A stretch of 64,000 bases of DNA from contig NZ_JARGNB010000001.1 of the NCBI RefSeq assembly GCF_030167915.1, positions 1,488,001 to 1,552,000 of the forward strand, read 5' to 3'. This document shows positions 8,039 to 25,467 of the stretch, piece after piece (position 1 is the first letter of the stretch; each line of letters starts with the position of its first letter). Source of the stretch: Aquabacterium humicola. GTDB lineage: Bacteria; Pseudomonadota; Gammaproteobacteria; Burkholderiales; Burkholderiaceae_C. Made by a program: the position numbers and the translations under genes. Below the pieces are notes generated by a model. That model saw only the letters and a list, made by a program, of their open reading frames with translations. It was not told the DNA's origin and did not search any database.

Positions 8039-8048
8039 GTCGGTGCTC

Positions 8049-8843: not shown

Positions 8844-8853
8844 CCGGCTCCCG

Positions 8854-9708: not shown

Positions 9709-9725
9709 GGTCGGAACTCGTTGCA

Positions 9726-11120
9726 TCAGGGTTTGGCGGGCGCGGGCGCGGGCGCGGGCGCGCGGTTCAGCAGCCGGTCGCAGTCGGACACCACCTCGTC
9801 GATGGGCAGGCCGGACAGCGACTGCAGCCGCAGGCGCGACAGCAGGTACTCGTAGCGCGACTGCGCGAGGTCACGCTGCGCGAGGTACTGGCGGCTCAGC
9901 GCGTCCAGCACGTCGGCCGTGGTGCCGAGGCCGGCTTCCTGCGCGCGCACCGCGCCGCGGTAGGCCACTTCGCTGGACTCGGCGGCGCGCTTGTAGGCCT
10001 GCACACGCTCGGCGCCATTGACGACGTTCTGGAAGTTGCGCTGCACCTCCAGCTCGACCGTCTCGCGCTCGGCACGCAGGTCTTCCTCGGCGCGCTGGCG
10101 TTCGGCCACCGCCTGCTTGACGCTGGCATCGATGCCGCCGCCGCTGTAGATGGGCACCGACAGCTGCATGCCCAGGCTCTTCAGGATGTTGGTCTGGCCG
10201 AGGTTGTTGACCGAGTCGTTCTCGTTGCGCGAGATGCTGGCGACGAGGTCGAGGCGCGGATAGTGCGCGGCGGACTGGCGCTCGATGTTGAGACGGGCGA
10301 CCATCACGCTCTGCTCGCGCGCGCGCACGGTGGCGCTGTTGCGCACCGCGATCTCGATCCACTCGAACAGTCCGCCCGGCTCCAGCGGGCCCGGCATGAA
10401 ATCCGCCGCGGGCTGGTTCAGCGGCGGCACGTCGCGCCCGATCAGGCGCTTGAGCCCGCGGCGTGCCACTTCGCGCGCGTCGGCCGCTTCGATCACCCGC
10501 ACCCTGCTGACGTCGGCCTGGGCCTGCGCCAGCGCCTGCTCGGTGCGCGTGCCCTCGCCGCGCTTGAAGCGCTGCTCGGCGCGTGTCAGCTGCGCCTGCG
10601 CGGCGACCAGCTGTGCATCCGCCAGCCCCTTGTTCTCGTCGGCCAGCAGCACCTGCATGTAGGCGGTGCCGAGGCGGTCGATCAGCTCGAGCGCGCGCGA
10701 GCGGTACACCGACTCGGCGACGTCGACCTGGGCCTGCGCCTGCTCGTAGCGCTTGGAGGCTTCGCGGTTGAACAGCGCCATGCGGGCCTGCAGCGAGCTC
10801 TGCGGCGACGAGTAGTCCAGTTGCGTCCGGACCTCCTGGTTGCCGCCGTTGTAGAACGAGCGGCTGCCGGAGACGTCGGCGCGCGAGACGTTGACGTTGA
10901 CCTGCGGCAGCAGGTTCGAACGCGCGATCGGCACGGCCTGGCGCTGCGATTCCAGCTCGAAGCCGGCCGAGCGGAAGTTCGGGTCGCTGTTGCGCGCCGC
11001 CGCGTAGGCTTCGGCGAAGCTCATCGCGTGGGAGGTGCCGGCGATCAGCGCGCCGGCAAGGGCCAGCACGGCGATCGCCGCGCGCTTCAGGCGGTGGTCG
11101 GTCCGACGCCGCATGGTCAC
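9726..11120 (-). CDS. TolC-family outer-membrane protein of the type I secretion system
   Basis: A 464-aa outer-membrane efflux protein. A signal peptide (basic start, hydrophobic core, SHA-MSF cleavage region) is followed by two repeats of the outer-membrane efflux fold, with long heptad-rich helices (for example SVYRSRALELIDRLGTAY) and the SLGMQLSVPIYSGGG barrel segment typical of TolC/AggA proteins. The C-terminus is a short Ala-Pro repeat. It forms the trimeric channel-tunnel that joins the HlyD-type adaptor. The start ATG 11120 overlaps the adaptor gene stop (ATGA). Confidence 0.93.
   Translation of the reverse strand: MTMRRRTDHRLKRAAIAVLALAGALIAGTSHAMSFAEAYAAARNSDPNFRSAGFELESQRQAVPIARSNLLPQVNVNVSRADVSGSRSFYNGGNQEVRTQLDYSSPQSSLQARMALFNREASKRYEQAQAQVDVAESVYRSRALELIDRLGTAYMQVLLADENKGLADAQLVAAQAQLTRAEQRFKRGEGTRTEQALAQAQADVSRVRVIEAADAREVARRGLKRLIGRDVPPLNQPAADFMPGPLEPGGLFEWIEIAVRNSATVRAREQSVMVARLNIERQSAAHYPRLDLVASISRNENDSVNNLGQTNILKSLGMQLSVPIYSGGGIDASVKQAVAERQRAEEDLRAERETVELEVQRNFQNVVNGAERVQAYKRAAESSEVAYRGAVRAQEAGLGTTADVLDALSRQYLAQRDLAQSRYEYLLSRLRLQSLSGLPIDEVVSDCDRLLNRAPAPAPAPAKP
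9738..9761. repeat. Hexanucleotide tandem repeat (GGGCGC)4
   Basis: Four perfect GGGCGC units lie within the last codons of the TolC-type gene and encode its Ala-Pro tail (APAPAPAP). Such a repeat can change length by slippage, but any change of one unit keeps the frame. Confidence 0.85.
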
Positions 11121-12493
11121 TCCTCCGTCATCGCTGCCGCGACGCGCTTGATCAGCGGGTGCAGCAGGTAGGTCAGCAGCGAGCGCTCGCCGGTCTTGAC
11201 GAGCACTTCGGCCGTCATGCCGGGCTGCAGGTTGCGGTTGCCCAGGGACTTCATGCCCTCGGGCGTCAGCTCGACGCGCGCCAGGTAGTACGACACGATG
11301 CCGTTGCCGACCTGCTCGTTGATCGCGTCGCCGGCCAGCGAGACGACCTTGCCGTGCACCACCAGCTGCGGCGAATCGGCGAAGGCCGTGAAGCGGACCT
11401 CGGTCTTCTCGCCGACCTTGACGCGGTCGATCGCGTGCGGCGGCACCTTGGCGTCGAGCAGCAGCGATTCGCCCTTCGGCACGATGTCCATCAGGCGCTG
11501 GCCCGGCGTTACCACGCCGCCGGCCGTGCTGATGCCCATGCCGATGACCTGGCCGGCCACCGGCGCCTTGATCTGCGTGCGGCCGAGCTCGGCGGTGACG
11601 GCCGCCAGGCGCTCTTCGTTGGCCTGCACCTCGCGGCGCACCTCGGCGAGCTGGCCGGAGACTTCCTTCAGGAACTCCTGCTCGCGCTGCGCGATGCGCA
11701 GGCGCGTCTCGGCGATGCCGCTGTGCAGCCGCTGGATGCTGGTCATCAGCTCGGACAGCGAGGTGGTGAGCTCGGCCTGCGACTGCTCGAGCGCCAGCGC
11801 CTGGTTGCGCGGCGCGAAGCCCTCCTCGGCCAGCGCCTGCACATTGCTCAGCTGCTTGGACTGCAGCGACGCCTGCGCCTTGCGGCTCTCCAGCATGCGC
11901 TGCATGCCGGTGATCTGGCCCTCCAGGCCGGCGATCGTCTGGCGCGCGGCGGCGATCTCGTTCGACTGCGCGGCGCGGCGCGACGAGAACAGCTGCTGCT
12001 GCACCTGCATGTGCTGCAGGGCCTGCGGGTCCTTGGCGGCGGTCAGGTCGGGATGGAAGCTGATCGCGCTGGCGCCGCTCACTTCGGCCAGCAGCCGGCT
12101 TTCCATGGCGCGCTGGGCGAGGTAGTTCTGCCGGATCGCCGAATAGGCGGCGCGCGTCGCCGCGTCGTCGAGCGAGATCAGCACGTCACCCTGCTGGACC
12201 TGCTGGCCCTCCTTGACCAGCACGCGCTGGATGACGCCGCCCTGCATGTGCTGGATGGTCTTGCGCCGCGTCTCGATCGACACGGTGGCCGGGGCCGCGA
12301 CGCCCTCGTCGAGCGGCGCGAACGCGGCCCACAGCAGGAACAGGCCGAAGCCGACGATCAGCACCCAGAAGCCGAGGCGGGTGACCGGCTTGGTGTCGGT
12401 CTTCAGCTCGACGTCGTCGAGGTCGGTGATGTCCTTCGCCGGGCCAGCGCCGGCGGAATCCCCGAGCTGCAGCGTTTTGGTGGTCGTGGTCAT
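11117..12493 (-). CDS. HlyD-family T1SS periplasmic adaptor (membrane fusion protein)
   Basis: A 458-aa adaptor. A cytoplasmic N-terminal tail precedes one membrane segment at about residues 38-60 (FWVLIVGFGLFLLWAAFAPL), then a lipoyl half-domain (HMQGGVIQRVLVKEGQQVQQGD), a long coiled-coil hairpin at roughly 150-300, the second lipoyl half (IKAPVAGQVIGM) and a beta-barrel end. This is the HlyD/PrtE/AprE layout. AGAGG lies eight bases before the ATG, so the gene has its own ribosome site 52 bases after the ABC gene. It links the inner-membrane ABC pair to the TolC-type channel. Confidence 0.93.
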   Translation of the reverse strand: MTTTTKTLQLGDSAGAGPAKDITDLDDVELKTDTKPVTRLGFWVLIVGFGLFLLWAAFAPLDEGVAAPATVSIETRRKTIQHMQGGVIQRVLVKEGQQVQQGDVLISLDDAATRAAYSAIRQNYLAQRAMESRLLAEVSGASAISFHPDLTAAKDPQALQHMQVQQQLFSSRRAAQSNEIAAARQTIAGLEGQITGMQRMLESRKAQASLQSKQLSNVQALAEEGFAPRNQALALEQSQAELTTSLSELMTSIQRLHSGIAETRLRIAQREQEFLKEVSGQLAEVRREVQANEERLAAVTAELGRTQIKAPVAGQVIGMGISTAGGVVTPGQRLMDIVPKGESLLLDAKVPPHAIDRVKVGEKTEVRFTAFADSPQLVVHGKVVSLAGDAINEQVGNGIVSYYLARVELTPEGMKSLGNRNLQPGMTAEVLVKTGERSLLTYLLHPLIKRVAAAMTEE

Positions 12494-12545: not shown

Positions 12546-14279
12546 TCAGTTGTTCTGGCCGGCGCGGGCCGGATTCGGATTCGGGACCGGCGCCAGCGCG
12601 CCCGGGTTGGCCTGGTTCTGCGCGACCAGCGGCAGGAAGCGCGTGATCTGGCCGTTCTCCAGGAACAGCGCGCGGTCGGCGGCGGCCAGCAGGTGCTGCT
12701 GGTGCACGATCATGAAGACCGTGCGGCCGCGGTTCTTCAGTTCGCGCACGGTGCGCACCAGCGCCTGTTCGCCGGCGTCGTCGAGGTTGGCGTTGGGCTC
12801 GTCGAGCACCACGAGCTCCGGATCGCCGAGGATCGCGCGCGCCAGGCCGATGCGCTGGCGCTGGCCGCCCGAGAGCATGCCGCCGGCCTCGCCCATCGGC
12901 GTGTCGTAGCCCTTGGGCAGGCGCAGGATCATCTCGTGGATGCCGGTGCGCTTGGCCGCCTCGATGACCTGCTCGGAGCGGTCGGGCTGGAAGCGCGCGA
13001 TGTTCTCGGCGATCGTGCCGTCGAAGAGCTCGATGTCCTGCGGCAGGTAGCCGATGTGCGGCCCCAGCGCCTCGCGCGACCACTCCTGCAGCGGGTGGCC
13101 GTCGAGCAGCACCTGGCCGCTCACATCGGGCCATATGCCGACGAGGCAGCGGGCCAGCGTCGACTTGCCGGCACCCGAGGGGCCCAGGATCGCGACCACC
13201 TCGCCGGCGCGGAACTCGACGTCCAGGCCCTTGAGGATCGGCAGTTCCCGGCCCGGCGCCGTGGCCTGCAGCTGGCGCAGCGTCAGCTGGCCGCGGACCT
13301 CGTCGCCGACGTGCGTGGCTTCGCGCGCGGGGTGGTCCTCCAGCAGCTTTTCCAGCCGCGCGTAGGACTGGCGCGTGTCGACGAACTGCTTCCAGGTCTG
13401 CACGACCAGGCTGATCGGGCGCAGCGCATTGCCCATCAGCGCGTTCGCGGCGATCATCGCGCCGGCAGAGATCTGGCCGTCGATCGCCAGCAGCGCGCCG
13501 AGCGCGAGCATCAGCGACTGCTGGCTGTACTGCACGTACTTGGTGATCGCCTGCATGCGGTGCGTGCGCTCGGCCGCTTCGCCCTGCACCTGCACCAGCC
13601 GCTGCTGGATCGCCAGCCAGTGGCGGCGCAGGTTGTCCAGCATGCCCAGCGCGTGCGCGGTCTCCGCGTTGCGCAGCTTGCTCTGCAGGTAGCCGGTGGA
13701 CTCCATCTGCACGTCGTTGACCTTCTTGTAGCCCGGCGCCGCGATGCGGTTGCCGACGATCGCCAGCACCAGCATCACGACCGCGAAGGCGATCGAGGTC
13801 CAGCCGAGCCACGGGTGCATCAGGAACATCACCGCGATGTACACCGGGGTCCACGGCAGGTCGACGAGCGCGAAGGTGCCGTTGCCGGTCAGGAACTGGC
13901 GCAGGTTCGTCAGGTCGCCGAAGGCCTGCAGCGGGCTGCGGTTCGCGCCGTTCAGGCTGGACTCGAAGCTGGCGTCGAAGACCTCGCCGTTCAGCGCTTC
14001 GTCGAAACGCGCGCCGGCGCGCACCAGCAGCCGCGAGCGGGCCCACTCGGCGAACGCCATCACGAGGAACAGCATCACGGTGATCAGCGACACGGCCGCC
14101 AGCGTGTATTCGCTGCCGCTGACCATCACCCGGTCGTAGACCTGCATCATGTAGATGGTCGGCGTCAGCATCAGCAGGTTCGCGAACATGCTGAAGACGG
14201 CGACCCACGCGAGCTCGCGCCGGAAACGCGCGAGCGTGCGGCCGAGCGCGCTGCGCTCGAAGAAGGCGGCGTTCTTCAT
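12546..14279 (-). CDS. Type I secretion ABC permease/ATPase, second subunit (PrtD type)
   Basis: A 577-aa fused membrane/ATPase half-transporter. The membrane domain (residues ~20-310) has the YMMQVYDRVM motif seen in PrtD/LapB-type exporters and no N-terminal C39-like domain. The nucleotide-binding domain has GPSGAGKST near residue 363, YLPQDIELF (Q-loop region), signature LSGGQRQRIGLARA, Walker B VVLDEPNANLD and switch His in VHQQH. All catalytic motifs are intact. A Pro/Asn-rich tail follows. The start overlaps the stop of the first ABC gene (ATGA), and the two probably act as a heterodimer. Confidence 0.92.
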   Translation of the reverse strand: MKNAAFFERSALGRTLARFRRELAWVAVFSMFANLLMLTPTIYMMQVYDRVMVSGSEYTLAAVSLITVMLFLVMAFAEWARSRLLVRAGARFDEALNGEVFDASFESSLNGANRSPLQAFGDLTNLRQFLTGNGTFALVDLPWTPVYIAVMFLMHPWLGWTSIAFAVVMLVLAIVGNRIAAPGYKKVNDVQMESTGYLQSKLRNAETAHALGMLDNLRRHWLAIQQRLVQVQGEAAERTHRMQAITKYVQYSQQSLMLALGALLAIDGQISAGAMIAANALMGNALRPISLVVQTWKQFVDTRQSYARLEKLLEDHPAREATHVGDEVRGQLTLRQLQATAPGRELPILKGLDVEFRAGEVVAILGPSGAGKSTLARCLVGIWPDVSGQVLLDGHPLQEWSREALGPHIGYLPQDIELFDGTIAENIARFQPDRSEQVIEAAKRTGIHEMILRLPKGYDTPMGEAGGMLSGGQRQRIGLARAILGDPELVVLDEPNANLDDAGEQALVRTVRELKNRGRTVFMIVHQQHLLAAADRALFLENGQITRFLPLVAQNQANPGALAPVPNPNPARAGQNN

Positions 14280-16057
14280 GCGGCGCTCCCGGGCAGGGCT
14301 TGCACGCGCTGGGCGGCGGCTTTCTGGGCGATGGCTTCCATCTGGGCGCGGGCCTGGTCGTTGGCCTTCTTCAGGGCCGCCAGCACTTCGTCGCGCGGGC
14401 CGAACGAGGCCACCTGGCCTTCGTTGAGCACCAGCAGCTTGTCCGCGGCGGGCAGCAGGGTGGTTCGGTGGGTGATCGCGATCACCGTCGCGCGACGGGC
14501 CTTCAGCGCGTGCAGCATCTGCAGCAGGGCCTTCTCGCCCGCTTCGTCGAGGCTGGCGTTGGGTTCGTCGAGCACCAGGAAGGTCGGGTTGCCGTAGGCG
14601 GCGCGCGCCAGGCCGATGCGCTGGCGCTGGCCGCCGGACAGCACCGCGCCGTCGTCGCCGATGCGGGTCTCGAAGCCCTGCGGCAGCGCCTCGATGGTCT
14701 CGGTCATGCCGACCAGCTGCGCGGCTTCGCGCACCTTGTCCATGTCGACCTTGCCGAAGCGGGCGATGTTCTCGGCGACAGTGCCGTCGAAGAGCTCGAC
14801 GAACTGCGGCAGGTAGCCCAGGTGGGGCCCCAGCTCGGCCTTGTTCCAGGCGTAGATGTCGGCGCCGTCGAGGCGCACCTTGCCGGCGGCCGCGGGCCAC
14901 ACGCCGACCAGCAGGCGGGCGAGCGTGCTCTTGCCGGCGGCCGACGGGCCGATCACCGCGACGACTTCGCCGGGGCGCGCATTGAAGGTCACGCCGCGCA
15001 GGATCGGCGCGGCGGCGCCCGGCGCACCGGCCACCAAGTTCTCGGCCGTCAGCACACCGGTGGGCGCCGGCAGCGGCATCTGGTCGGTCTTCTCGGGCGC
15101 CTTGCCGAGCAGCTGGTCGAGGCGGGCATAGGCATCGCGCGCGCCGATCAGCAGCCGCCACTGGCTGACCAGCTGGGCGAGCGGCTGCAGCACCCGGCCG
15201 CCGAGGATCGACGCGACGATCAGCATGCCGGCGCCGCCCCACAGGCCGTCATGCAGCATCACCCAGCAGGCGGCGCCGAGCAGCATCGAGCTCTGCATCG
15301 TCTGGATCAGCTTCGCGGTGGTGGCCGTCATGCCGCCGTAGTCCGACGCCATCGCCTGCTTCGCGAGGAAGCGGCGCTGCGTGCGCAGCCAGCGCGCGCG
15401 GATCTGGCCCAGCATGCCCATCGACTCGATGACCTGCGTATTGCGCAGCGTGCTGTTCGCGTAGGCCTGGGCCTGGATCGAGGACTGGATGGCCTCGGTC
15501 AGCAGCGGCATCGTGCGCTTCTCGGTGAGCAGCGCGAGGCCGGCCTGCAGCATGGCGCCGATCAGCGCCAGCACGCCGAGCCAGGGGCTGATCGCGAACA
15601 GCAGCAGCAGGCAGACGGCTGCCGCCGGTGTGTCGAGCACCGCGGTCACGGCCGGCGTGCTGATGAAGTCGCGCACGGTCTTCAGGTCGGTGAAGGGTTG
15701 CGGCGAACCGCCGGGGGCGCGCCGCAGGTTGGCGTCGAACGCGACATCGAACAGGCGCGCGCGGACCTTGTGCTCGAACTGTTCGCCGATCCGGTGCAGC
15801 GCGCGGGCGCGCACGAGGTCGAGCAGTTCCATCACGACGTACACACCGAGCACCATCAGCACCAGCATCCCGAGCGTGGTGGCATTGCGGCTGTTCAGCA
15901 CGCGGCCGTAGACCTCGAACATGAACCACGAGGGCGTCAGTGCGAGCAGGCCGGTCGCGACGCTGATCCAGGCCGCCTGGATCATCAGCGGGCGCTGCGA
16001 CATCAGCGCGTCGCGCAGCAGGGACGTCGGGCCGGAAGGTTGGCGTGGCGGGTTCAT
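14276..16057 (-). CDS. Type I secretion ABC permease/ATPase, first subunit (PrtD type)
   Basis: A 593-aa half-transporter related to its downstream neighbour. The membrane domain has SWFMFEVYGRVLNSRN, and the ATPase has GPSAAGKST near residue 369, YLPQFVELF, signature LSGGQRQRIGLARA, LVLDEPNASLD and ITHRTT. It also lacks a C39-like domain, as in RTX-protease and S-layer exporters. Its ATG overlaps the stop of the TnpB-like gene (ATGA), so its translation probably depends on that gene. The pair should energise export of C-terminally addressed RTX proteins, with the giant protein encoded upstream as the likely cargo. Confidence 0.92.
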   Translation of the reverse strand: MNPPRQPSGPTSLLRDALMSQRPLMIQAAWISVATGLLALTPSWFMFEVYGRVLNSRNATTLGMLVLMVLGVYVVMELLDLVRARALHRIGEQFEHKVRARLFDVAFDANLRRAPGGSPQPFTDLKTVRDFISTPAVTAVLDTPAAAVCLLLLFAISPWLGVLALIGAMLQAGLALLTEKRTMPLLTEAIQSSIQAQAYANSTLRNTQVIESMGMLGQIRARWLRTQRRFLAKQAMASDYGGMTATTAKLIQTMQSSMLLGAACWVMLHDGLWGGAGMLIVASILGGRVLQPLAQLVSQWRLLIGARDAYARLDQLLGKAPEKTDQMPLPAPTGVLTAENLVAGAPGAAAPILRGVTFNARPGEVVAVIGPSAAGKSTLARLLVGVWPAAAGKVRLDGADIYAWNKAELGPHLGYLPQFVELFDGTVAENIARFGKVDMDKVREAAQLVGMTETIEALPQGFETRIGDDGAVLSGGQRQRIGLARAAYGNPTFLVLDEPNASLDEAGEKALLQMLHALKARRATVIAITHRTTLLPAADKLLVLNEGQVASFGPRDEVLAALKKANDQARAQMEAIAQKAAAQRVQALPGSAA

Positions 16058-16710
16058 GGGCTCAGACGCGGGGCGCCGGTTCGAAGGGGGGGCGGCATGG
16101 CCGCGGGGTCGTCCTGCGTGACGACGACGTACTCGGGCAGGTCGGCACTGGCCGCTGCGGCCGGCTGGGCTTCCTCTTCCGCGCCGTCGGCATCGGCGAA
16201 GTGGAAGCTCAGCGTGAAGGTGCTGCCCTTCGAGGCGAGCACGATCTCGCGCAGCTTGTCATGGCGGAAGCGCTGTTCGTCGCCGGCGCCGAGGTTCAGC
16301 TGGAAGCGCATGCGGCCGTCGAGCGTGTACATCGATGCTTGGCCGTCCTTGATGCTCAGCGTGTGGCGATCGAAGTACACGGGCGACTGGGGCAGGAACT
16401 GCAGGCGCGGCAGCGGTCGGTCGCCGAGGCGGGCCAGGTTGAACGGACTCTGCGGATGCTGGTAGACGATGCGGCTGGAGCGGGAGACGGAGTAGATCGC
16501 ATTGCAGACCATCTGCGAGCCGAGCCCCGGAAACTGTTGCCGCAGTTGCTTGTACGCCATGTGGTGCAGCGCGACCCGGTTCCAGCAGCGGGTCTGCTGC
16601 ACCAGCGGCGCCAGTGCGTTGCAGACCGCCGAGAACGCGTGCTGCAGCGCCACCAGCCGCTGCGCCTGCGCTGCGTCGGTGTTCAGCGCGAGGCGAACGA
16701 CGGAATTCAT
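16054..16710 (-). CDS. TnpB-like (WED/REC-only) protein lacking the RuvC nuclease domain
   Basis: A 218-aa protein that resembles only the N-terminal half of IS1341/IS605-type TnpB. Visible matches are a first strand RLALN (6-10), a helix with the Cys-Asn pair (30-31) and W43, MAYKQLRQQF then GLGSQMV (51-68), and a beta-rich part with VYFDRHTLSI (111-120) and STFTLSFHF (163-171), as in the TnpB wedge domain. The sequence then becomes a ~45-residue Ala/Pro-rich tail where TnpB would begin RuvC; no catalytic Asp motif or zinc finger is present. The stop overlaps the T1SS ABC start (ATGA), and the promoter is overlapped by a large inverted repeat. RNA or DNA binding without cleavage is inferred. 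A decayed transposase gene is the alternative, but the intact coupled frame argues against it. Confidence 0.7.
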   Translation of the reverse strand: MNSVVRLALNTDAAQAQRLVALQHAFSAVCNALAPLVQQTRCWNRVALHHMAYKQLRQQFPGLGSQMVCNAIYSVSRSSRIVYQHPQSPFNLARLGDRPLPRLQFLPQSPVYFDRHTLSIKDGQASMYTLDGRMRFQLNLGAGDEQRFRHDKLREIVLASKGSTFTLSFHFADADGAEEEAQPAAAASADLPEYVVVTQDDPAAMPPPLRTGAPRLSP

Positions 16711-16744
16711 ATAGGACGCGGATCATAGCCAAGTCCTATATGAA
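16706..16744. promoter_or_regulatory. Perfect 12-bp inverted repeat over promoter and start codon (candidate operator)
   Basis: TTCATATAGGAC at 16706-16717 is exactly repeated in inverted form at 16733-16744 with a 15-bp spacer that holds the -10 box. One arm covers the start codon; the other abuts the -35 box. A second inverted repeat (GAAGTC/GACTTC, 16742-16757) overlaps the -35 box. A protein bound here would block the promoter; autoregulation by the TnpB-like product is a hypothesis. Confidence 0.65.
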
Positions 16745-16749
16745 GTCAA
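16722..16749 (-). promoter_or_regulatory. Sigma-70-type promoter of the TnpB-like/T1SS genes
   Basis: On the minus strand TTGACT (16749-16744) and TATGAT (16727-16722) are separated by 16 bases, close to the sigma-70 consensus. The ATG begins only 12 bases after the -10 box, so the mRNA would have a leader of about five bases or fewer. No Shine-Dalgarno is visible, which fits leaderless initiation. Confidence 0.6.
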
Positions 16750-16774
16750 TCGACTTCTGCCGTGTCCTTCGGAT

Positions 16775-17302
16775 TCAGTGCAAAGGTGCTGCCGGATGCG
16801 GATTCACGGGGGCGCGTTCGCTGGCGATCGGGGGCAAGTTCCAGCCGGCGGCGGCGACGCGACGCGAGACGGCATCGACCAGCGCATGCAAGGTCGGATC
16901 AGCCACCACCATGGTCAGCGGCGGGCCGTCCCGCAGCTCGAAGTTGAGCACCCAGCGGCCATCGCCGCGGCGGCGCCCGCATTCGATCTTCGTGACCAGC
17001 ATCGGCGGGCGTTCGGCGGGCTGCTCGACGACAGGCTCCGCGGCTTCCGTGCGCGTCGGCACCTGGCTGGCGAGGGCCTGGTGGTGGGCCGAAGAGACGG
17101 CCGCCTTGGCCGCGCGGTCCATGCGCTCGGGCAGTGCTGCGGACATGTCGACCATCGCCTGCAGGTCGCGGCGCCAGCCGACGCACAGGCGGCGCGTCAG
17201 CAGCAGCCAGTGATCGACGGGGCCGGCCGAGGTCTTGACGGTCAGGCGCAGCACCAGCCGGTCTTCGACCGGATCGAAACGCAGGCTGATCTTCTGGAGC
17301 AT
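16775..17302 (-). CDS. Hypothetical protein, T1SS-operon accessory
   Basis: A 175-aa protein I do not recognise. It has two conserved-looking parts: residues 1-55 (beta strands LRFDPVEDRLVLRL then WLLLTRRLCVGWRRDLQAMV) and residues 98-150 (VTKIECGRRRGDGRWVLNFEL followed by an amphipathic helix), joined by a Glu/Pro-rich linker. There is no signal peptide or membrane segment, so it is probably cytoplasmic. It lies between the 95-aa gene and the TnpB-like gene, all in the same direction and just upstream of the exporter, so a role in expression, chaperoning or export of the large cargo is a reasonable guess. The start ATG has no clear ribosome site. Confidence 0.7.
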   Translation of the reverse strand: MLQKISLRFDPVEDRLVLRLTVKTSAGPVDHWLLLTRRLCVGWRRDLQAMVDMSAALPERMDRAAKAAVSSAHHQALASQVPTRTEAAEPVVEQPAERPPMLVTKIECGRRRGDGRWVLNFELRDGPPLTMVVADPTLHALVDAVSRRVAAAGWNLPPIASERAPVNPHPAAPLH

Positions 17303-17365
17303 GAAGGTCGAAGGCCCCGACGGTCGGGACCGTCAGGGCCTGGCAGTGTGGTGGGCGTCGCCGGG

Positions 17366-17653
17366 TCAGGCCGCCGGGGCCGCGTCCTTGCCTTCGGCCT
17401 TGGCGCCGGACTTCGCCGCGCGCTTCTGCTGTTGCTTGGCGATCTCGTTGACCAGCTTCTGCTGCATGTTGAAGCCGGCAGCGAACGCGTCGATCGGCAT
17501 CACCAGCTGGTGCGTGATGTCCATGCGCATGCCGTCCTTGCCTTCCTTGGTCTTGGCCGGGCCGGCGATGGTGGCCAGCTCGATGCGCACGAGGCCGTTC
17601 TGGATCGAGACACCGACGATGCGGTCGGTGAAGACAACTTGCTTGTTAGCCAT
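17366..17653 (-). CDS. Small hypothetical protein, T1SS-operon accessory
   Basis: A 95-aa cytoplasmic protein, not recognised. Residues 1-60 form beta strands (VVFTDRIVGVSIQNGLVRIEL, QLVMPIDAF), followed by an amphipathic helix and a Lys/Ala-rich tail ending KDAAPAA. The layout resembles small beta-beta-helix proteins of unknown function. On the minus strand a TACAAT -10-like box sits at 17762-17757, about 100 bases upstream; no matching -35 box is obvious. There is no Shine-Dalgarno at the ATG. It heads the group of small genes before the T1SS transporters. Confidence 0.72.
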   Translation of the reverse strand: MANKQVVFTDRIVGVSIQNGLVRIELATIAGPAKTKEGKDGMRMDITHQLVMPIDAFAAGFNMQQKLVNEIAKQQQKRAAKSGAKAEGKDAAPAA

Positions 17654-17824
17654 GGAAATTTGACTTCTGAGGAGGAGGTGGCCCCGGCTGGCGGGGAGAG
17701 GTCGTGTCGCTGGACGGCACGACCGAGTGCGGCCGGCGTGTCGCCGGGAGCGCGAAATTGTAGTGGAGCGGACGAGCTGCCCGGGTGCCGGGCATTCACC
17801 GGTGCCGCGGTGGACCGAGCGCCC

Positions 17825-17998
17825 TCAGAGACCGGCTTCGCGCAGGCGCTGCAGAAAGTCCTTGCCGGGCAGCGAGCGCCGGGACACCACACGCGCCCTG
17901 CTTTCCACCTGACGCGGCATCACCTTGGCGACCGGCGACGCGTGGTGCTGCATCGGGCGTTCGAGCGGGTAGTCGGCGGTGGCGGGCGGCGGGGGCAT
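17825..17998 (-). CDS. Small ORF, 57 aa, hypothetical
   Basis: An ATG-to-TGA frame of 58 codons that is Pro-rich at the start (MPPPPATADY), basic in the middle (RQVESRARVVSRRSLPGKD) and ends in an amphipathic helix DFLQRLREAGL. The conserved-looking helical end and mixed composition make it look coding rather than random. No ribosome site is visible. It is the first possible gene after the CRP-like site at 18060-18075 and would be the promoter-proximal gene of the secretion operon. No function can be assigned. Confidence 0.45.
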   Translation of the reverse strand: MPPPPATADYPLERPMQHHASPVAKVMPRQVESRARVVSRRSLPGKDFLQRLREAGL

Positions 17999-18059
17999 GG
18001 TGTCGGAGCAGTTGTCTGGAGGGTATGTGGTGATTGTGTTGTTGTCATGACGATCAGGT

Positions 18060-18075
18060 TGTGATGCGTGTCACC
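18060..18075. promoter_or_regulatory. CRP/Vfr-like site upstream of the secretion operon
   Basis: TGTGATGCGTGTCACC matches the TGTGA-N6-TCACA consensus at nine of ten positions. It lies between the terminator of the giant gene and the 57-aa ORF. About 20 bases downstream on the minus strand, ATGACA and TACCCT with a 17-base spacer could be a weak promoter. Confidence 0.5.
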
Positions 18076-18133
18076 ACGAACGGGACATCCTGATCCCGCC
18101 CCCCGAATGTGGGGTGCCGCGTCATTCGGGCAA

Positions 18134-18164
18134 TAAAAAAACCGCCCCGGTTGCCCGGGGCGGT
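18134..18164 (-). terminator. Rho-independent terminator of the giant RTX gene
   Basis: A perfect 10-bp stem (ACCGCCCCGG at 18141-18150 with CCGGGGCGGT at 18155-18164, loop TTGC) is followed on the minus strand by a run of seven T residues. It lies 49-79 bases after the giant gene stop and should end that transcript before the secretion operon. Confidence 0.9.
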
Positions 18165-18212
18165 CTTGGCGATTCGTCGGGCCGCGCTGGCGCGGCCCTT
18201 GGGAACGCTGGC

Positions 18213-21200
18213 TTACAGCATGCCGGCGACGTCAGCGGCGGTCAGTTCGACCGTGCTGTTCACCGTGCCGACCAGGCTGACCGTCAGGTCACCCACACCG
18301 GCCGTCGCGCCATTGCTGACGTAGTACAGCAGCCAGGACTGGTTGCCCGCCGTACCGCCGGCACCGGTCGCGTCAGCCGAGACCGCGAAGACCGCGATGT
18401 CGCCGTCGGCGATGTTGAACTTGCCAGCCGTGGCGGCCGCGGCGAAGTCGGAAGCGGCCAGGCCGCCCTTGTTCGCAACGACGACCAGGTCGGTCGCGCC
18501 AGCCGGCGAGAACGTGCCCGCGCCGCTGTACGTGAACGTCTCGACCGTGCCGCCACCGTTGCCGGCGCCCAGGAAGGCGCTGAAGTTGAAGGTGTCGGTC
18601 AGGTCGACCTGGTTCAGCGTGTCAGCACCGTTCAGGGCCGCGGTGGCTTCGAACACGAACGTGTCGGCGCTGTCGACCGCCGGGGCCAGGGCCGTGAAGG
18701 CCTCGGTCACGGTGATCGTGCCGCCCGTCAGATCCTGGCCCGTCTGGAAGTCGGTGATCAGGATCGTCGCGGCGTTCGCCGAGTTGTTGAACGCGAAGCT
18801 CAGCTGGTTCGACACGGCGTTGTACGTCACACCGGTCAGTGCGCCCGCTTCAGCAGCGGTCGCGCCAGCGGTCTGCAGCGCAGCGACCCACGTCGCCAGG
18901 TTCAGCGACGCGAACATCGCACCGACCTGGTCCGAATCAGCGCCCGTGGCGATCTGGTTCGAGGCCGCAGCCGGGTTGAACGCTGCCGGAGCCGCCGCGG
19001 CCGTGATGGTCGCGCCGGCCACCGTCACGTTGTCGCCGTTCGCCGTCAGCACCGAAGCGCCGCCGGTGAAGGTCGCCACGTACGACGGGCCCACCGCAGC
19101 CTGGAAGCCGCCGCTGAGGGTGTCGTTGCCCATGCCACCACGCAGGGTGTCGTTGCCGCCGTTGGTCGTGATCGTGTCCGCGGCATCGCTGCCCCAGATC
19201 GTCACGGCTTCGTTGCCGACCATGGTCACCGCCACGCCAGTCGTCGCATGCGGGACCGGGGTGGTGGCGAACACGGTGCCGGCGAAGCTCAGCGTGTTCA
19301 TGTTGCCGTTGAACTGCAGCGTCTTGGCGCCGATCACCAGCGAGTTGGCGCTGGTGTTCAGCACGAAGCTGGTGCCGTGCGAGGCGATCGTGGCGTTCGA
19401 GACGACCACGGCTTCGAAGTCGTTGACCGTCGTCGTCGCCGCAGTGCCCAGCGTGCCGATCACCAGTTCGTCGTCGCCGCCACCGTCCTGCACCGCCGGA
19501 GCGATGACTTCGGTGCCGTCCGAGCCGTTGATCGTGGTCAGCGTGGCCAGGTTGACGGCGCTGAGGTCCAGCACGTCGAAGTCGTACAGGAAGAACTCGT
19601 TGAGTTCGCCCAGGTCGATCGTCGTGTTGCCCGCGATGCCGCCGTTGAAGGCCGCTGCAGCCGCGTCGTTGTTGACCTTGATGACGTCGTGATCACCAGC
19701 GGTGTCCAGCAGCGTCAGGCCCGTCACGCCCACCAGCGAGGCGAAGTTGTACAGGTCGTTCGAAGCGGCGTCCTGGATGAACTCGAAGCCGGTGAGGGTC
19801 ATCGAGGTCGAGGTGCCGATGTTGACCGTGATCACGCCCGGCGACGAGCCGAGGATGAAGGTCTTCGAGCCGAGGCCCGCGAACTGCACCACGTCTTCCG
19901 CGTCCTGCGAACCTTCGATCTTCAGGCTGCCCGAAGCCGTCGTGTTGTCCGAGGTGTGCGAGGTGATGGTGTGCATGCCACCCAGGAAGGTGCCGCTTGG
20001 CGCATTGACGCCCAGGCCGTCCTGGAAGGTCACGACGGCGTTGATGAGGCCTTCCGAGACGTTCGTCGTCGCCAGGTTCTCTTCCGTCACCGTGATCACC
20101 GCCGAGACCGAGGTCTCGAGCGGCGAGTAGCGCACTTCGTTCGCACCGCCACGCAGGGTCAGCACGTCGGTCGTGAAGCGGTGGTCCAGACCGGACTGGT
20201 TCACCAGGTCTTCGCTGCCCTGGTAGATCACCGTCTCGGCGGAGTCACCACCTTCGATCTGGTTCCAGGTCGCGTCGGCCACGGCAGACGTGGTCTTGTT
20301 GTACGTCCACTTCTCGATGAAGCCGGTCAGGCCGGCGACGGTGTTGCCCGTCGCGTCGGCGATGCGGACCGTCTGCTCGAGCACCTGGTTTTCGGCCGGG
20401 TTGCCCGAGGGCGCGGCGTACTGGAAGGTGATCTGGCGAGCGGCGCCGACGCCGGTGAAGTCCATCACCGACGGACCCGTCGCGGCGACGATTTCCTCGA
20501 CGCTGCGCAGGATGTCGACGCGGGAGCCCTGGTCGGTGATGCTGGTGTCGGCGTCGCCGCTGACCACCACGTACTGCGGCGCCGTGGCGCTGCCCTGACC
20601 CACCGGAACGATGATGCGGCCGTCTTCGGCGCTGTAGTCGACACGGTCACCCGTCTCGGTACCGGCACCGCTGTTGCTCAGCGCGAACGTGAACTCGCCC
20701 TGGTTGATGACGTTGGTCACCGTGTCGTCGGCCACCTGAGCCGCGAACGACTTGCGGGTCGTCGCGTTGGTGTTCAGGTCGTCGAAGTCCAGGTACGTCA
20801 TGAACAGGATGTTCTGGTCCGGCGTACCGTTGGCGATGTCTTCGCGGGCGTTGTCGTCCATCAGCGCCGAGTCAGCGACGAAGACGGTGTCGTTGCCGCC
20901 GCCGCCGTTCACGCGCTCGATCTGAACCAGGCCGTCGATGGTGACGTGGGTGGTGCCACCCGACTTCACGGTGCCGTCGACGTAGCTGACTTGCGCGCCG
21001 TTGATGGCCGACACATCCAGCACGTCGTTCTCACGCACGCTTTCGGCCGTGTTGGCTTCCAGCGAGATGAACTCGACGCCGTTCAGCGTGTCGACGGCTT
21101 GCGTGGTGCCCACGCGGCCGGCGGTGCTGGTGACGGTGTCGGTGCCGCCGAGGCTGGCCGCGACGTTGTCCACCGCGATCGTGATGGTCGGCTCGCCGAC

Positions 21201-24200
21201 GATGGTGCCCAGGTCGTTCTGGTAGATGATGCGGTCGTCGCCGAGGTCGCCGGTGAACGTGTTGTTCTTGGCGGCTTCGGTTTCGTCGATCACCAGCAGG
21301 TCGTCACCGGTGCCACCGATCACGCTTTCGACGCCGTCGACGCGGATGACCAGCGACTCGAAGTCGGTGATCGCCGGCTTCGTCAGGCTGGCGTGGGCGT
21401 TGGCGCTGTAGGTCACAGAGCCGGCGGCGAAGCCGTTGACCACGTCGTTGGTCAGGTTGTACATCACGCCGTTCGCGCCGGTCGTGGCCGACGACAGCGC
21501 CGAGACGTTCAGCGTGTCGTTGCCCTGGCCGTCGTTGGCGATGGCATTGCCCGTGCCGGAGACGGTGCGGATGTTCTCGAAGTTCGTGAAGCGGGTCCAC
21601 GACTCGATGACGCCGTTGCCGTCCATGTCGACGCCGACCGTGCCGGCGCCGTCATTGCGCAGCTCGACCACGCCGCCGGTCAACGTGAAGTTGTCCAGCG
21701 TGATCGTGAAGCGGGTGACGCCCGGGGTGAACAGCTTCTGCGTGAACTGCAGCGTGTCGTCGAAACGGCCGCTCACGGCACCGCTGCCCGACTCGGTCTG
21801 GTCGATCAGCGTGATCGACGAGATCGTCAGGCTGCTCAGCGCGGCAACCTTGCTCGGGTTCTGCGATTCCCAGTGGTTCAGCACGTAGACGCGCGCTTGC
21901 GCTTCGCCCAGCACTTGAACGGCGTAGAAGTTCTTGCCGCCGTCCAGCGTGTCCCAGGTCGAGGTGCCGTTGCCGCCCACCGAGCCTTCGACGCGGTCGT
22001 CGCCGGTGCCACCGCTGATGGTGTCGAGGCCGGCGCCGCCGATCAGGAAGTCGTCACCGTGGATCGCGACGCCATTCGGGATGGCAGCGATCGGGGTGTT
22101 GGTGATCGTGTTGTTCACGACCGCGGTGGTCGTGCCGAAGATCACGTCCTGCAGGTTGTTGGCCCCCACGTCGACGACGATCGCTTCGTAGCCCGTCAGC
22201 GTATCGCCGGCGGCCTTGGCGGTCGACAGTTCAGCGCGGTTGGTCTTCTCGGCACCCCAGAACAGGACGTTGGTCTCGTTCAGTTCGCCGTTGCGGCCGT
22301 CGAAGTCCAGCAGCTCGACTTCGTGCTGCGAGACGTTCGTGACGGTGACCTTGGCCGGCTCGCCGCCCGACTGGTTGCCCAGCGTGACGACCGGCGTGAC
22401 CATGAAGACGGTCTCTTCGCCCTGGTAGTCGGCCTGCGTCAGCGTGAGCGTGTCGACGCCGTTGAACGCGGACGCCACCTCGCCGGCCGACGTGTCGTCG
22501 TCCATGAAGCTGTTGATGAAGGCGTTCAGGCGGGCCAGGAAGGCCGTCTGGATGCCGGCTTGCGTGTCGCCGCCTTCGCCGTCTTCCGCCGCGATCGGGT
22601 TGCCGTCGAGGTCGACGCCGACTTGCAGCGTGTACTTCACGCCGTTGACGGCGATCGTGACGATGTCTTCCGTCGTCAGGTTCGTGAAGCGCAGCGTGTA
22701 GGCCTGGTCTTCGGCCAGACGGGTCGTGGCGACGCCGTCGCCGTCTTCGTCTTCGAAGTTGGCCACCAGGTCTTCGGCGTAGGCATCAGCGCCCAGCGAG
22801 ATCTGGCTGCCGATCGTCGCGTCGTCGTTGGTGCTCTCGGCGTCGAGGCGGTCTTCGTACGAGTTGTAGATCAGGCGGTCCTTGGTGGTCGACGTGCCAG
22901 GAGCCTGGTACGTGGCGAGCGCCGAGAACGCACCGTTCGACACCACGCCGCCGACGGCATAACCTTCGGCCACGGTGTCGGAGATGTCACGGCCACCGGT
23001 GTCGGTCACGACGATCGTGTTGCCGATGGCGACCGCGGTCACCTTGGCGTCGATCGCCTGGTAGGCGGTGTTCACCAGGGCAGCCACGGCGGCGGCGCTG
23101 GTCGCGGCGATCAGCGCGGCCGAGTCGGTCACCGAGAACACGGTGCCGGTGGCGCCGCCGATCTTGATGGTGAACGAGGTCAGCGCGACGTCCGGCGACG
23201 ACAGGTCGGTCGTGCCGAGGTCGACGATCAGCTTCGACGGGCCGGTGGTGCTGCTGCCGCCGATGTTGAAGTCACGCTCGAACAGGCCATTGCCCGCGGC
23301 GTCGGTGTCCCACAGGTTGTCGCCGTTGGCATCGGTCTGGCGGTGGATCACGTCCACGCCGTCGCCTTCCGCGACCTGCAGGAAGAAGATGAAGTCGTCG
23401 TTGCCGTCACCGCCGGACAGGGCGTCGTTGCCCATGCGGCCTTCCAGCACGTCGGCGCCGCCGACGGCGTACAGCGTGTTGTCGTTGCCATTGCCACGCA
23501 GGTCCAGGTTGCCGGTGAAGGCGAAGTGGTTCTGCTGGTTGGCAAAGACCAGTTCCGGATCATTGGCGCCGGCGGCCAGGTAATCGACCGAGCCGAGGCC
23601 GGTGGCGATCACATTGTCGAAGTCCTGCACCTGGGCGCGGGCATAGCCGGCCTTGTACAGGGTCTGGTCCGACGTGTAGTTGCCGGTTGCGGCGTTCTTG
23701 TCCGCACCGCCGTAGCCGGCGGCGTTGGCCAGGCCGCCGACCAGGCCAACCGCCAGGTCCATGCGGACCGTGCCGTCACTGGTGACATCGGAAACCGTGC
23801 GCGTGCCGAAGGCTTCGCGCGTCAGCCACAGCGTGTCACCCGAACCGTCGTCGTCCGGAGTGGGGCCAGCGTTCGAGCCAGTCGAGCCCAGGCCCTGCTC
23901 CGCGCCACCTTCGTAGATGCCGCCGTCGGTCTCGAAGACGATGTCGTCGGCATCAGCGCCGCCGATCAGCTCGTCACGGCCGTTGTTCCAGATGCCCGTG
24001 AGGTTGGGGTTGTTCAGGTGGTTGAGGTTGCCACCCATCAGCAGGTCGGCACCGTCGCGGCCTTCGACGTAGTCGTTGTCGTAGCCGGCGATGATGATGT
24101 TCGAGACGTTGCTGCCCGAGATCCACAGCTGGGCCGAGGAGCCGATGCCGTAGTTGCTGGCGCCGGCCTCGTCGCGCGTGTCGACCGCGCGGCCGCCGAT

Positions 24201-25418
24201 CTCGACATCCACGTCATCGAGGAAGCCGTACAGGTTGCCCGAGGCGTCCACGTTCTCGACGTCGTCGAGCTGCATGCTTTCGCCCGAACGCGACAGCACA
24301 CGACCCATGTCGTCGAACAGGCCGTCCGCGCCATCGCGGTCGTCGAGCGACGTGGTGTTGTCGTTGTTCAGCCAGATGCGGACCGGCTCGTCGTCGTCCG
24401 ACGCTTCGAACAGCAGCCAGTCGTTGTCTTCGGCGCTCTGGTTGTTGCCGGCGGACTCGTCGTCCGACGTGATGCCGCCGTCGATCAGCAGCGTGCTGCC
24501 GTCGGTGGCGTCGATGCCCGAGAACTCGGCGAAGAAGAAGTCGGCGTTGCGGTTGCCGCTCAGGTAGTCGCGGCCCGTGCGGCCTTGGGCGATGCCACCG
24601 CCGGCCAGGAAGTCGTTGCCGACGCCGCCGAACGCGGTGTCGGTACCCAGACCACCCAGGAAGATGTTGCCGTTGGTCGAGACGCCGTCGCCGTCGAAGG
24701 CGGTGCCGTCGTAGTAGATGTCACCGAGGAAGTTGTTCGCGGTGTCGGTGTGGTCGAGCGGGTTGCGCGCGTAGGCGTCGACGATCTCGAAGTTCGCCGC
24801 GACACCGGTGATGCTGCGCTCGCCACCGTTGAATTCGATCACGCCGTCGCCGTCGAGGTCCAGGCCGATGACCTGGTTGGCGGGGTTCGTGAAGTCGATG
24901 CGGACGTCCTGGTCGCCGGTCAGGCGCATGACGTCGGCGCCGGCCGCGGTTTCAGCGGTCAGCGTGAACAGCTTGCCGGCGGTGGTGTGGACCGGCACGT
25001 CGGTGGTGTCGTCGATCGCCGCGTAGGCGACGGCAGCCGAGATCTGTGCGTTGAACGCGCGGGCCGCAGCGGCGACGTCGGCGTTCGAGTGGGCGGTCAT
25101 GCCGGCGAAGGCATTCAGGATCGTGACGATCGACTGGCCTTCGTGGCCGGCGCCGCCAGCGTTCAGGACATCAACGACAGCCCCTTCGGCGATGCTGGCA
25201 ACCGCGCCGGAGATGCCGACGTTGGCAACGATCTTCTGCGCGACTTGCGCATAGGTCATGCCCGCGAAGTCGGCGTTGTAGACGGACTGCACGACCGAGG
25301 CCACGCCACCGGAGGCGTTCGCCTGTTCGAGCGCCCAGTCCATCGTCTCGTTGCCCAGCTGCAGGTCATACAGCGCAGCGGCAACTCGAGCGATGACAGT
25401 GCTATTGAAAGATGCCAT
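18213..25418 (-). CDS. Giant RTX repeat protein, probable S-layer or adhesin-like T1SS substrate
   Basis: A 2401-aa, acidic protein in which I see no cysteine, typical of calcium-binding proteins exported by type I systems. The ATG at 25418 is fixed by AGGAG nine bases upstream. Residues 1-110 are Ala-rich helices that resemble surface-layer or DUF4214-like regions. Short RTX nonapeptide groups (GGxGxDxx) occur near residues 259, 663, 1136 and 2090, for example GGNDTLRGGMGNDTLSGG. EF-hand-like loops such as DLDGDGVIE also occur. Between them lie long Thr/Val/Asn-rich beta repeats. There is no Sec signal; the C-terminus ends in hydrophobic and acidic residues (VELTAADVAGML), fitting an uncleaved T1SS signal. 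The adjacent exporter supports secretion. S-layer versus adhesin cannot be settled from sequence. Confidence 0.88.
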   Translation of the reverse strand: MASFNSTVIARVAAALYDLQLGNETMDWALEQANASGGVASVVQSVYNADFAGMTYAQVAQKIVANVGISGAVASIAEGAVVDVLNAGGAGHEGQSIVTILNAFAGMTAHSNADVAAAARAFNAQISAAVAYAAIDDTTDVPVHTTAGKLFTLTAETAAGADVMRLTGDQDVRIDFTNPANQVIGLDLDGDGVIEFNGGERSITGVAANFEIVDAYARNPLDHTDTANNFLGDIYYDGTAFDGDGVSTNGNIFLGGLGTDTAFGGVGNDFLAGGGIAQGRTGRDYLSGNRNADFFFAEFSGIDATDGSTLLIDGGITSDDESAGNNQSAEDNDWLLFEASDDDEPVRIWLNNDNTTSLDDRDGADGLFDDMGRVLSRSGESMQLDDVENVDASGNLYGFLDDVDVEIGGRAVDTRDEAGASNYGIGSSAQLWISGSNVSNIIIAGYDNDYVEGRDGADLLMGGNLNHLNNPNLTGIWNNGRDELIGGADADDIVFETDGGIYEGGAEQGLGSTGSNAGPTPDDDGSGDTLWLTREAFGTRTVSDVTSDGTVRMDLAVGLVGGLANAAGYGGADKNAATGNYTSDQTLYKAGYARAQVQDFDNVIATGLGSVDYLAAGANDPELVFANQQNHFAFTGNLDLRGNGNDNTLYAVGGADVLEGRMGNDALSGGDGNDDFIFFLQVAEGDGVDVIHRQTDANGDNLWDTDAAGNGLFERDFNIGGSSTTGPSKLIVDLGTTDLSSPDVALTSFTIKIGGATGTVFSVTDSAALIAATSAAAVAALVNTAYQAIDAKVTAVAIGNTIVVTDTGGRDISDTVAEGYAVGGVVSNGAFSALATYQAPGTSTTKDRLIYNSYEDRLDAESTNDDATIGSQISLGADAYAEDLVANFEDEDGDGVATTRLAEDQAYTLRFTNLTTEDIVTIAVNGVKYTLQVGVDLDGNPIAAEDGEGGDTQAGIQTAFLARLNAFINSFMDDDTSAGEVASAFNGVDTLTLTQADYQGEETVFMVTPVVTLGNQSGGEPAKVTVTNVSQHEVELLDFDGRNGELNETNVLFWGAEKTNRAELSTAKAAGDTLTGYEAIVVDVGANNLQDVIFGTTTAVVNNTITNTPIAAIPNGVAIHGDDFLIGGAGLDTISGGTGDDRVEGSVGGNGTSTWDTLDGGKNFYAVQVLGEAQARVYVLNHWESQNPSKVAALSSLTISSITLIDQTESGSGAVSGRFDDTLQFTQKLFTPGVTRFTITLDNFTLTGGVVELRNDGAGTVGVDMDGNGVIESWTRFTNFENIRTVSGTGNAIANDGQGNDTLNVSALSSATTGANGVMYNLTNDVVNGFAAGSVTYSANAHASLTKPAITDFESLVIRVDGVESVIGGTGDDLLVIDETEAAKNNTFTGDLGDDRIIYQNDLGTIVGEPTITIAVDNVAASLGGTDTVTSTAGRVGTTQAVDTLNGVEFISLEANTAESVRENDVLDVSAINGAQVSYVDGTVKSGGTTHVTIDGLVQIERVNGGGGNDTVFVADSALMDDNAREDIANGTPDQNILFMTYLDFDDLNTNATTRKSFAAQVADDTVTNVINQGEFTFALSNSGAGTETGDRVDYSAEDGRIIVPVGQGSATAPQYVVVSGDADTSITDQGSRVDILRSVEEIVAATGPSVMDFTGVGAARQITFQYAAPSGNPAENQVLEQTVRIADATGNTVAGLTGFIEKWTYNKTTSAVADATWNQIEGGDSAETVIYQGSEDLVNQSGLDHRFTTDVLTLRGGANEVRYSPLETSVSAVITVTEENLATTNVSEGLINAVVTFQDGLGVNAPSGTFLGGMHTITSHTSDNTTASGSLKIEGSQDAEDVVQFAGLGSKTFILGSSPGVITVNIGTSTSMTLTGFEFIQDAASNDLYNFASLVGVTGLTLLDTAGDHDVIKVNNDAAAAAFNGGIAGNTTIDLGELNEFFLYDFDVLDLSAVNLATLTTINGSDGTEVIAPAVQDGGGDDELVIGTLGTAATTTVNDFEAVVVSNATIASHGTSFVLNTSANSLVIGAKTLQFNGNMNTLSFAGTVFATTPVPHATTGVAVTMVGNEAVTIWGSDAADTITTNGGNDTLRGGMGNDTLSGGFQAAVGPSYVATFTGGASVLTANGDNVTVAGATITAAAAPAAFNPAAASNQIATGADSDQVGAMFASLNLATWVAALQTAGATAAEAGALTGVTYNAVSNQLSFAFNNSANAATILITDFQTGQDLTGGTITVTEAFTALAPAVDSADTFVFEATAALNGADTLNQVDLTDTFNFSAFLGAGNGGGTVETFTYSGAGTFSPAGATDLVVVANKGGLAASDFAAAATAGKFNIADGDIAVFAVSADATGAGGTAGNQSWLLYYVSNGATAGVGDLTVSLVGTVNSTVELTAADVAGML

Positions 25419-25453
25419 GTCTTGAAACTCCTGTTGGTCTAGGAAGTAAGGAC

Positions 25454-25467
25454 TTCTTTGCAAAGAA
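25454..25467. repeat. 14-bp palindrome in the giant gene leader
   Basis: TTCTTTGCAAAGAA is a perfect palindrome 36-49 bases before the giant gene ATG, just upstream of its ribosome site. It could bind a dimeric regulator or form a small mRNA hairpin. Confidence 0.5.

Follow-up and report, generated by a model that had tools for sequence, protein, structure and literature searches.

Within a 64,000-nucleotide stretch of Aquabacterium humicola (the window; NCBI RefSeq assembly GCF_030167915.1, contig NZ_JARGNB010000001.1, positions 1,488,001 to 1,552,000 of the forward strand), we analysed a gene for a 218-amino-acid (218-aa) protein that derives from TnpB, lacks the RuvC nuclease half and is built into a type I secretion system (T1SS) operon. 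Its promoter carries two copies of one operator-like site:

16054..16710, minus: RuvC-less TnpB-derived gene, ATG start, 218 aa, WED and REC only, with a variable tail that contains LPEYV
16706..16716, plus: operator-like site 1, exact match to TTCATATAGGA, overlapping the start codon; the gene strand reads TCCTATATGAA
16722..16727, minus: predicted -10 box TATGAT, read from the sequence, between the two sites
16734..16744, minus: operator-like site 2, exact match to TTCATATAGGA, within the predicted -35/-10 spacer and overlapping the -35-like hexamer by one base
16744..16749, minus: -35-like hexamer TTGACT, read from the sequence, 16 nt from the -10 box

The gene had been singled out in an earlier note on this DNA, from which the sites at 16706-16716 and 16734-16744 are absent; they were found in the present analysis.

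Residues 7-175 of the 218-aa protein align with a full-length TnpB at 40% identity over 172 columns (BLASTP, E = 1e-32), and the blocks RCWNRVALH and LGSQMVCNAI are common to the protein and the TnpB N-terminal half. RuvC (GVDVGENNLAA) begins in the full-length relatives right past the aligned part. At this position the 218-aa protein has instead a tail of variable sequence in which LPEYV is conserved, and it stops before both the RuvC domain with its catalytic D/E/D and the C-terminal zinc finger. By sequence comparison, the protein is inactive as a nuclease, the RuvC half of its TnpB ancestor being gone. In an AlphaFold2 model (mean predicted local distance difference test score, pLDDT, of 86), residues 1-177 superpose on the WED and REC half of Cas12f and TnpB (Foldseek/VIA-align), and Cas12f rows rank first in the structure search. 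The earlier note had described a TnpB-like wedge-plus-REC layout ending where RuvC should begin, and had named an unrelated fold as the result that would speak against it; alignment and predicted fold both agree with its description, the fold being that of TnpB WED/REC.

Pfam and NCBIfam hold no family for the protein (one NCBIfam row, E 0.22, lies well under the cut-off), and PDB sequence searches returned no TnpB or Cas12 row, their best E values of 0.19 and 0.06 being at the level of chance. The kinship with TnpB therefore shows up in just two ways, by way of the protein's own TnpB clade and in the fold. Across 78 sequences, conservation is maximal in helices 2 and 3 and in mid-WED (mean column identity 0.82-0.87 versus 0.40 in the tail), and residues 1-84 contain 8 K/R versus 1 D/E.

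Several known systems share parts of this arrangement. The IS200/IS605 TnpB of clade P0122/P0132, which has the left-end word TTCAT, is alike in its N-terminal half and its WED and REC fold, whereas the window protein has neither RuvC nor zinc finger, no TnpA-like neighbour, and T1SS genes downstream. Cas12f and Cas12m type V effectors have the same WED and REC fold, but they own a RuvC domain and use CRISPR RNA (crRNA) or single guide RNA (sgRNA), parts that the window system is without. TldRs are also TnpB-derived, without a working nuclease and partnered with a non-transposon gene, and they repress at promoters, as is proposed for the window protein; they are RNA-guided and retain their nuclease domain in inactivated form together with a guide cassette (PMC13418256), whereas the window protein has lost the entire RuvC half and no local guide was found. 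Since the defining domains are absent we do not class it as a TnpB nuclease, nor, since no guide was found, as a TldR. PrtD/LssB-type T1SS operons likewise comprise two PrtD-type ATP-binding cassette (ABC) proteins, HlyD and TolC, but here a TnpB-derived gene stands at or near the operon head. We know of no described case of such a gene at or near the head of a T1SS operon, and among the papers listed by searches of the open PubMed Central literature, with subscription journals mostly outside it, there was no RuvC-less TnpB regulator and no link between TnpB and T1SS; an earlier description may exist.

The rest of the operon follows on the same strand:

14276..16057, minus: T1SS ABC transporter 1 (PrtD type, TIGR01842), NCBIfam; its start and the TnpB-derived gene's stop overlap as ATGA
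12546..14279, minus: T1SS ABC transporter 2 (PrtD type, TIGR01842), NCBIfam; start at 14279, also an ATGA overlap
11117..12493, minus: HlyD-type adaptor (TIGR01843), NCBIfam
9726..11120, minus: TolC-type outer membrane protein (TIGR01844), NCBIfam

Both ABC proteins, HlyD and TolC exceed the NCBIfam cut-offs and form a complete PrtD-type T1SS set. The first stop/start overlap, ATGA at 16054-16057, had been reported in the earlier note and is confirmed, as is the intact frame. The linkage extends well beyond this genome. Among the best 80 of 249 relatives in species genomes, all of them of Betaproteobacteria type going by their record titles, a T1SS ABC gene comes next in 79 loci; in the remaining one the contig stops 56 nt past the gene. 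The frame is open in all 78 readable loci (200-317 codons; two loci begin too near a contig end to be counted), and we reject a random decay product, for which frameshifts in relatives had been named as the sign. Nor is this an active or recent transposon: queries for TnpA and for the RuvC half, which recovered three controls carrying insertion sequences, matched neither the window nor any of the 80 loci L009-L088 (G and L numbers denote genomes and loci). The lack of a TnpA neighbour thus holds as noted earlier; transposon ends were not searched in the window.

The family is large, old and maintained. Out of 5,556 candidate clusters, limited to 0.55-1.75 times the length of the 218-aa protein, 4,974 match at E<=0.01, and among the matches listed (120), named clusters carry the annotation hypothetical. 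A sample of another gammaproteobacterial order has members in 2 of 62 genomes, 41-45% identical and both ahead of T1SS ABC genes. These two members, L111 and L159, have shorter and different C-terminal tails. In an unrooted tree built from 16 selected RuvC-less sequences and 12 full-length ones, one branch (100/98) parts the two groups, in keeping with a single loss of the nuclease half. In a class sample the gene occurs in 2 of 369 genomes. Viral contigs scanned with P0132 gave no confirmed member, and the one near relative in a plasmid collection is a full-length TnpB.

Sites equivalent to 1 and 2 are present in the related loci, usually with TTCATATAGGA forward in the -35/-10 spacer and reversed across the start codon. 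All 77 loci with 150 nt of upstream sequence have at least one site with at most one mismatch (65 forward, 73 reverse, 61 both). Exact copies number 141 in the 210-nt regions from -150 to +60; elsewhere in the 1,263,537 bases there is none. The starts of inverted pairs are 26-28 nt apart in 45 of 63 cases; a minority of loci have direct pairs 13-14 nt apart, a few have a single site, and several have additional sites upstream. Hexamers of the form TAnnnT peak between -17 and -11 from the ATG (21 loci at -17 and 19 at -13, versus 0.31 per position upstream), placing a promoter core between the sites, so that the transcript would be nearly leaderless. In alignments anchored on the ATG, no position past about -38 rises above 0.1 bit of conservation.

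The 12-bp consensus, TTCATATAGGA(A), reads TTCMT-AT-AKGAA, with 5 of its 6 position pairs self-complementary; we rely on the consensus alone, base frequencies mixing orientations because each site differs by few mismatches from its reverse complement. The gammaproteobacterial form at the start codon of L111, TTCATATATGAA, is self-complementary at all 6 position pairs, and the site of L159 reads TTCATATATGA next to TACAAT. As a site, TTCATATATGA(A) is a perfect or near-perfect palindrome in L111 and L159.

The sites go with the gene. The 7,386,564 bases of the own genome contain exactly two exact TTCATATAGGA, both at this promoter, and one further place with one mismatch. Among 40 relatives, exact copies occur in 6 of 7 gene-bearing genomes versus 3 of 33 gene-free ones. 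We then consider 250 Burkholderiales genomes, of which 12 match the profile: 7 RuvC-less, 4 with a full-length TnpB and one unclear (G882), as sorted by frame and neighbours, some full-length ones being cut by contig ends. A strict inverted pair is found in 3 of the 250, all three among the 7 RuvC-less genomes, and in none of the 243 without the RuvC-less gene. G892 carries a direct pair of sites at its start codon. Where tolC comes first in the operon, as in G756 and G794, two sites 16 nt apart lie upstream of tolC. This is the case for 2 of 3 tolC-first genomes, so that the site follows the operon head and not the start codon.

The word inside the site has a history in the full-length relatives. 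The insertion target of IS200/IS605 elements is the word found 5' of their left end, which also serves TnpB as its transposon-adjacent motif (TAM). At the left ends of the full-length relatives, the flanks diverge up to TTCAT and the element starts after it, in 12 of 12 readable cases (six copies in G687, two in G807, three in G754 and one in Mariprofundus, G048). Excluded were L142, whose left end is not common to the other copies, L148, which reads N, and G712, G882 and L109, whose ends are not determined. TnpB identity to P0132/P0197 is 70-76% for the G754 fragments, 46-47% for G687 and 38-41% for G807. G687 contains seven near-identical full-length TnpB copies (L142-L155), which differ in their left-end hairpins and are 98-99% identical in the rest. 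We infer that TTCAT is the TAM of these full-length relatives. Each TTCATATAGGA site approximates two inverted TTC(A/C)T words, the site word being the same as the left-end word. By a rough count, the chance of a given pentamer within a 12-bp site on two strands is below 2%, and higher for AT-rich words like TTNAT. The coincidence supports, and does not prove, that the operator-like site may have been built from the ancestral insertion word.

We suggest, with a probability of roughly 0.7, that this WED and REC half of TnpB without its nuclease is a guide-free repressor of its own T1SS operon, reading TTCAT-type words at the promoter. The 218-aa protein would bind the predicted operator sites, probably with one dimer per near-palindromic TTCMT-AT-AKGAA. 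Once bound, it would flank the -10 box and overlie the start codon, block RNA polymerase and keep the exporter low by autorepression. As promoter core and start codon would both be covered, repression is the natural reading. No guide RNA would take part, and the TAM-reading surface would serve as the site reader. Somewhat less firmly, we take the TAM-reading half to be an RNA-independent transcription factor whose dimer reads two inverted TAM words in each 12-bp operator half, the former licence for a guide search having become the entire address, and which would represent a new class of DNA-binding regulators of a protein exporter, of single origin and present across Beta- and Gammaproteobacteria. 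The binding of RNA or DNA without cutting and the possible control of an exporter, both put forward in the earlier note, may thus be narrowed to DNA, to an operator at the operon head and to the TAM-reading surface.

Guide-free action is suggested by the loss of the half that helps to hold the RNA and by the lack of a local guide. In ISDra2 TnpB, the TAM duplex sits in the WED/REC cleft, WED and RuvC carry the omega-RNA scaffold, and REC and RuvC form the channel for the heteroduplex (PMC10097598). Compared with that account, the 218-aa protein retains exactly the TAM-reading part. The 11 nt that follow a site are repeated in the locus for 0 of 144 sites (control 6 of 149), and shorter stretches are repeated no more often than in the control (9 nt, 21/144 versus 44/149; 10 nt, 11/144 versus 16/149). 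A guide could be shorter still, as 6 nt are enough for repression by TldRs (PMC13418256), and the 6-mer test matters for this reason. Between -3 and +4 kb the 6-mer ATAGGA peaks at no position, and 61 of 69 loci have no copy of it from -1000 to +2000 apart from those in the sites. The participation of a guide RNA is thus unlikely. Rfam gave no match at the gathering score in 14000-19000, with two weak rows under it at E up to 1. At the 3' end of the TnpB-derived gene, the place of the omega-RNA in TnpB nucleases, the ABC gene starts at the stop codon.

These results bear on a truncated TldR that would still be RNA-guided through a very short guide, with TTCAT as TAM and ATAGGA as a 6-nt target. 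TTCAT followed by exactly 6 conserved nt matches the 6-nt TldR guides, and TldRs likewise derive from TnpB and are linked to non-transposon genes (PMC13418256). The domain that joins WED in holding the omega-RNA and REC in forming the heteroduplex channel (PMC10097598) is gone, however, the searches above found no local guide, and guide pairing does not predict the self-complementarity of the sites, which reaches 6 of 6 pairs in TTCATATATGAA. We consider this explanation unlikely. A similar DNA-binding protein might instead act as an activator or as a sensor-switch for the secretion state, given the extra upstream sites in several loci and the frequent sensor role of regulators encoded within exporter operons. 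Repressors, however, typically sit as the main sites do, over the core promoter and start codon, and we give this possibility only a small chance.

It is improbable, to a slightly greater degree, that the sites belong to a separate, unlinked regulator while the TnpB-derived protein acts otherwise, for instance at the exporter. The identity of the site-binding protein is indeed a prediction, and G799 has the gene without a site; against this, the sites track the gene, strict pairs being absent from the 243 Burkholderiales genomes that lack it, the own genome has no exact copy elsewhere, and the site word is the left-end word of the full-length relatives. Most improbable of all is a post-transcriptional regulator that binds the start of the mRNA (UCCUAUAUGAA around the start codon). 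The right-hand site spans the start codon in most loci, and the WED domain of TnpB contacts RNA (PMC10097598), but the other site mostly precedes the predicted -10 box, where it would stay outside the transcript, and in tolC-first operons both sites are upstream of tolC, distant from the start of the TnpB-derived gene.

Several observations weigh against a guide-free repressor that reads its ancestral TAM. A guide could be encoded in trans, and TTCAT plus ATAGGA can be read as TAM plus a 6-nt target. The empty site of the G048 element in its relative G083 reads TTCAA and not TTCAT. An alignment with ISDra2 TnpB for the TAM-contact residues gave an unconvincing register at K76-Q80, and we therefore withhold residue-level claims. 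Site number and orientation are not rigid, with direct pairs in L017, L023, L026, L042, L069 and L079. G015 has the gene and only a two-mismatch site, and tolC-first G799 (L160), with the gene after tolC, has no site within 7 kb. The gene itself is patchy, occurring in 5 of 20 genomes of the same genus besides its own and in 3 of 299 of a phylum sample, with the full-length G048 counted in. Exact single sites occur in the gene-free G022, G029 and G031 (3 of 33), and a reversed control pattern occurs in 4 of 40 genomes. The copies in these three genomes are probably due to chance; the four places show no match to the T1SS proteins of the window. They are L100 and L106 in G029, L095 in G022 and L101 in G031, none of them beside T1SS genes.

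TnpB is the source of Cas12 and of the RNA-guided TldR repressors, in which RNA gives the address and the TAM or PAM (protospacer-adjacent motif) is merely a licence. If our reading is true, the licence-reading half was kept alone and its word doubled into an operator, a second and guide-free route from nuclease to transcription factor. This depends on the proposed mechanism; if a guide RNA existed, the 218-aa protein would be a TldR variant. The reading raises the question of the DNA specificity of a bare WED and REC module, which might find use as a compact domain for binding DNA at a defined 12-bp site. A widespread T1SS operon family, as yet uncharacterised, would also gain a regulator, and thousands of 'hypothetical proteins' a name.

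Finally, a further feature lies just upstream of the operon:

18213..25463, minus: giant repeats-in-toxin (RTX)-like open reading frame (ORF), 2416 aa, 8 GGxGxD

This ORF is a possible cargo of the exporter. An RTX-like frame is found in just 8 of 40 loci of at least 20 kb, and we therefore do not claim RTX cargo in general. Of the surface-protein exporter suggested previously, the coupling to a T1SS operon stands, while the family is not limited to one such exporter. ORFs related to the giant one are present in L010 and L013, and a second RTX-like open frame lies at about 31.6-34.6 kb on the minus strand (985 aa between stops, 5 GGxGxD). Two small minus-strand ORFs, 16775-17302 (175 aa) and 17366-17653 (95 aa), have no Pfam or NCBIfam match; both precede the TnpB-derived gene, in the same order, in L003, L009, L010 and L013. 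After tolC, the minus strand of 6785-9726 carries a gene that by eye resembles a peptidyl-prolyl isomerase and an O-antigen-type ABC pair, which are likewise found behind tolC in L009, L010, L013, L015, L024 and L071.
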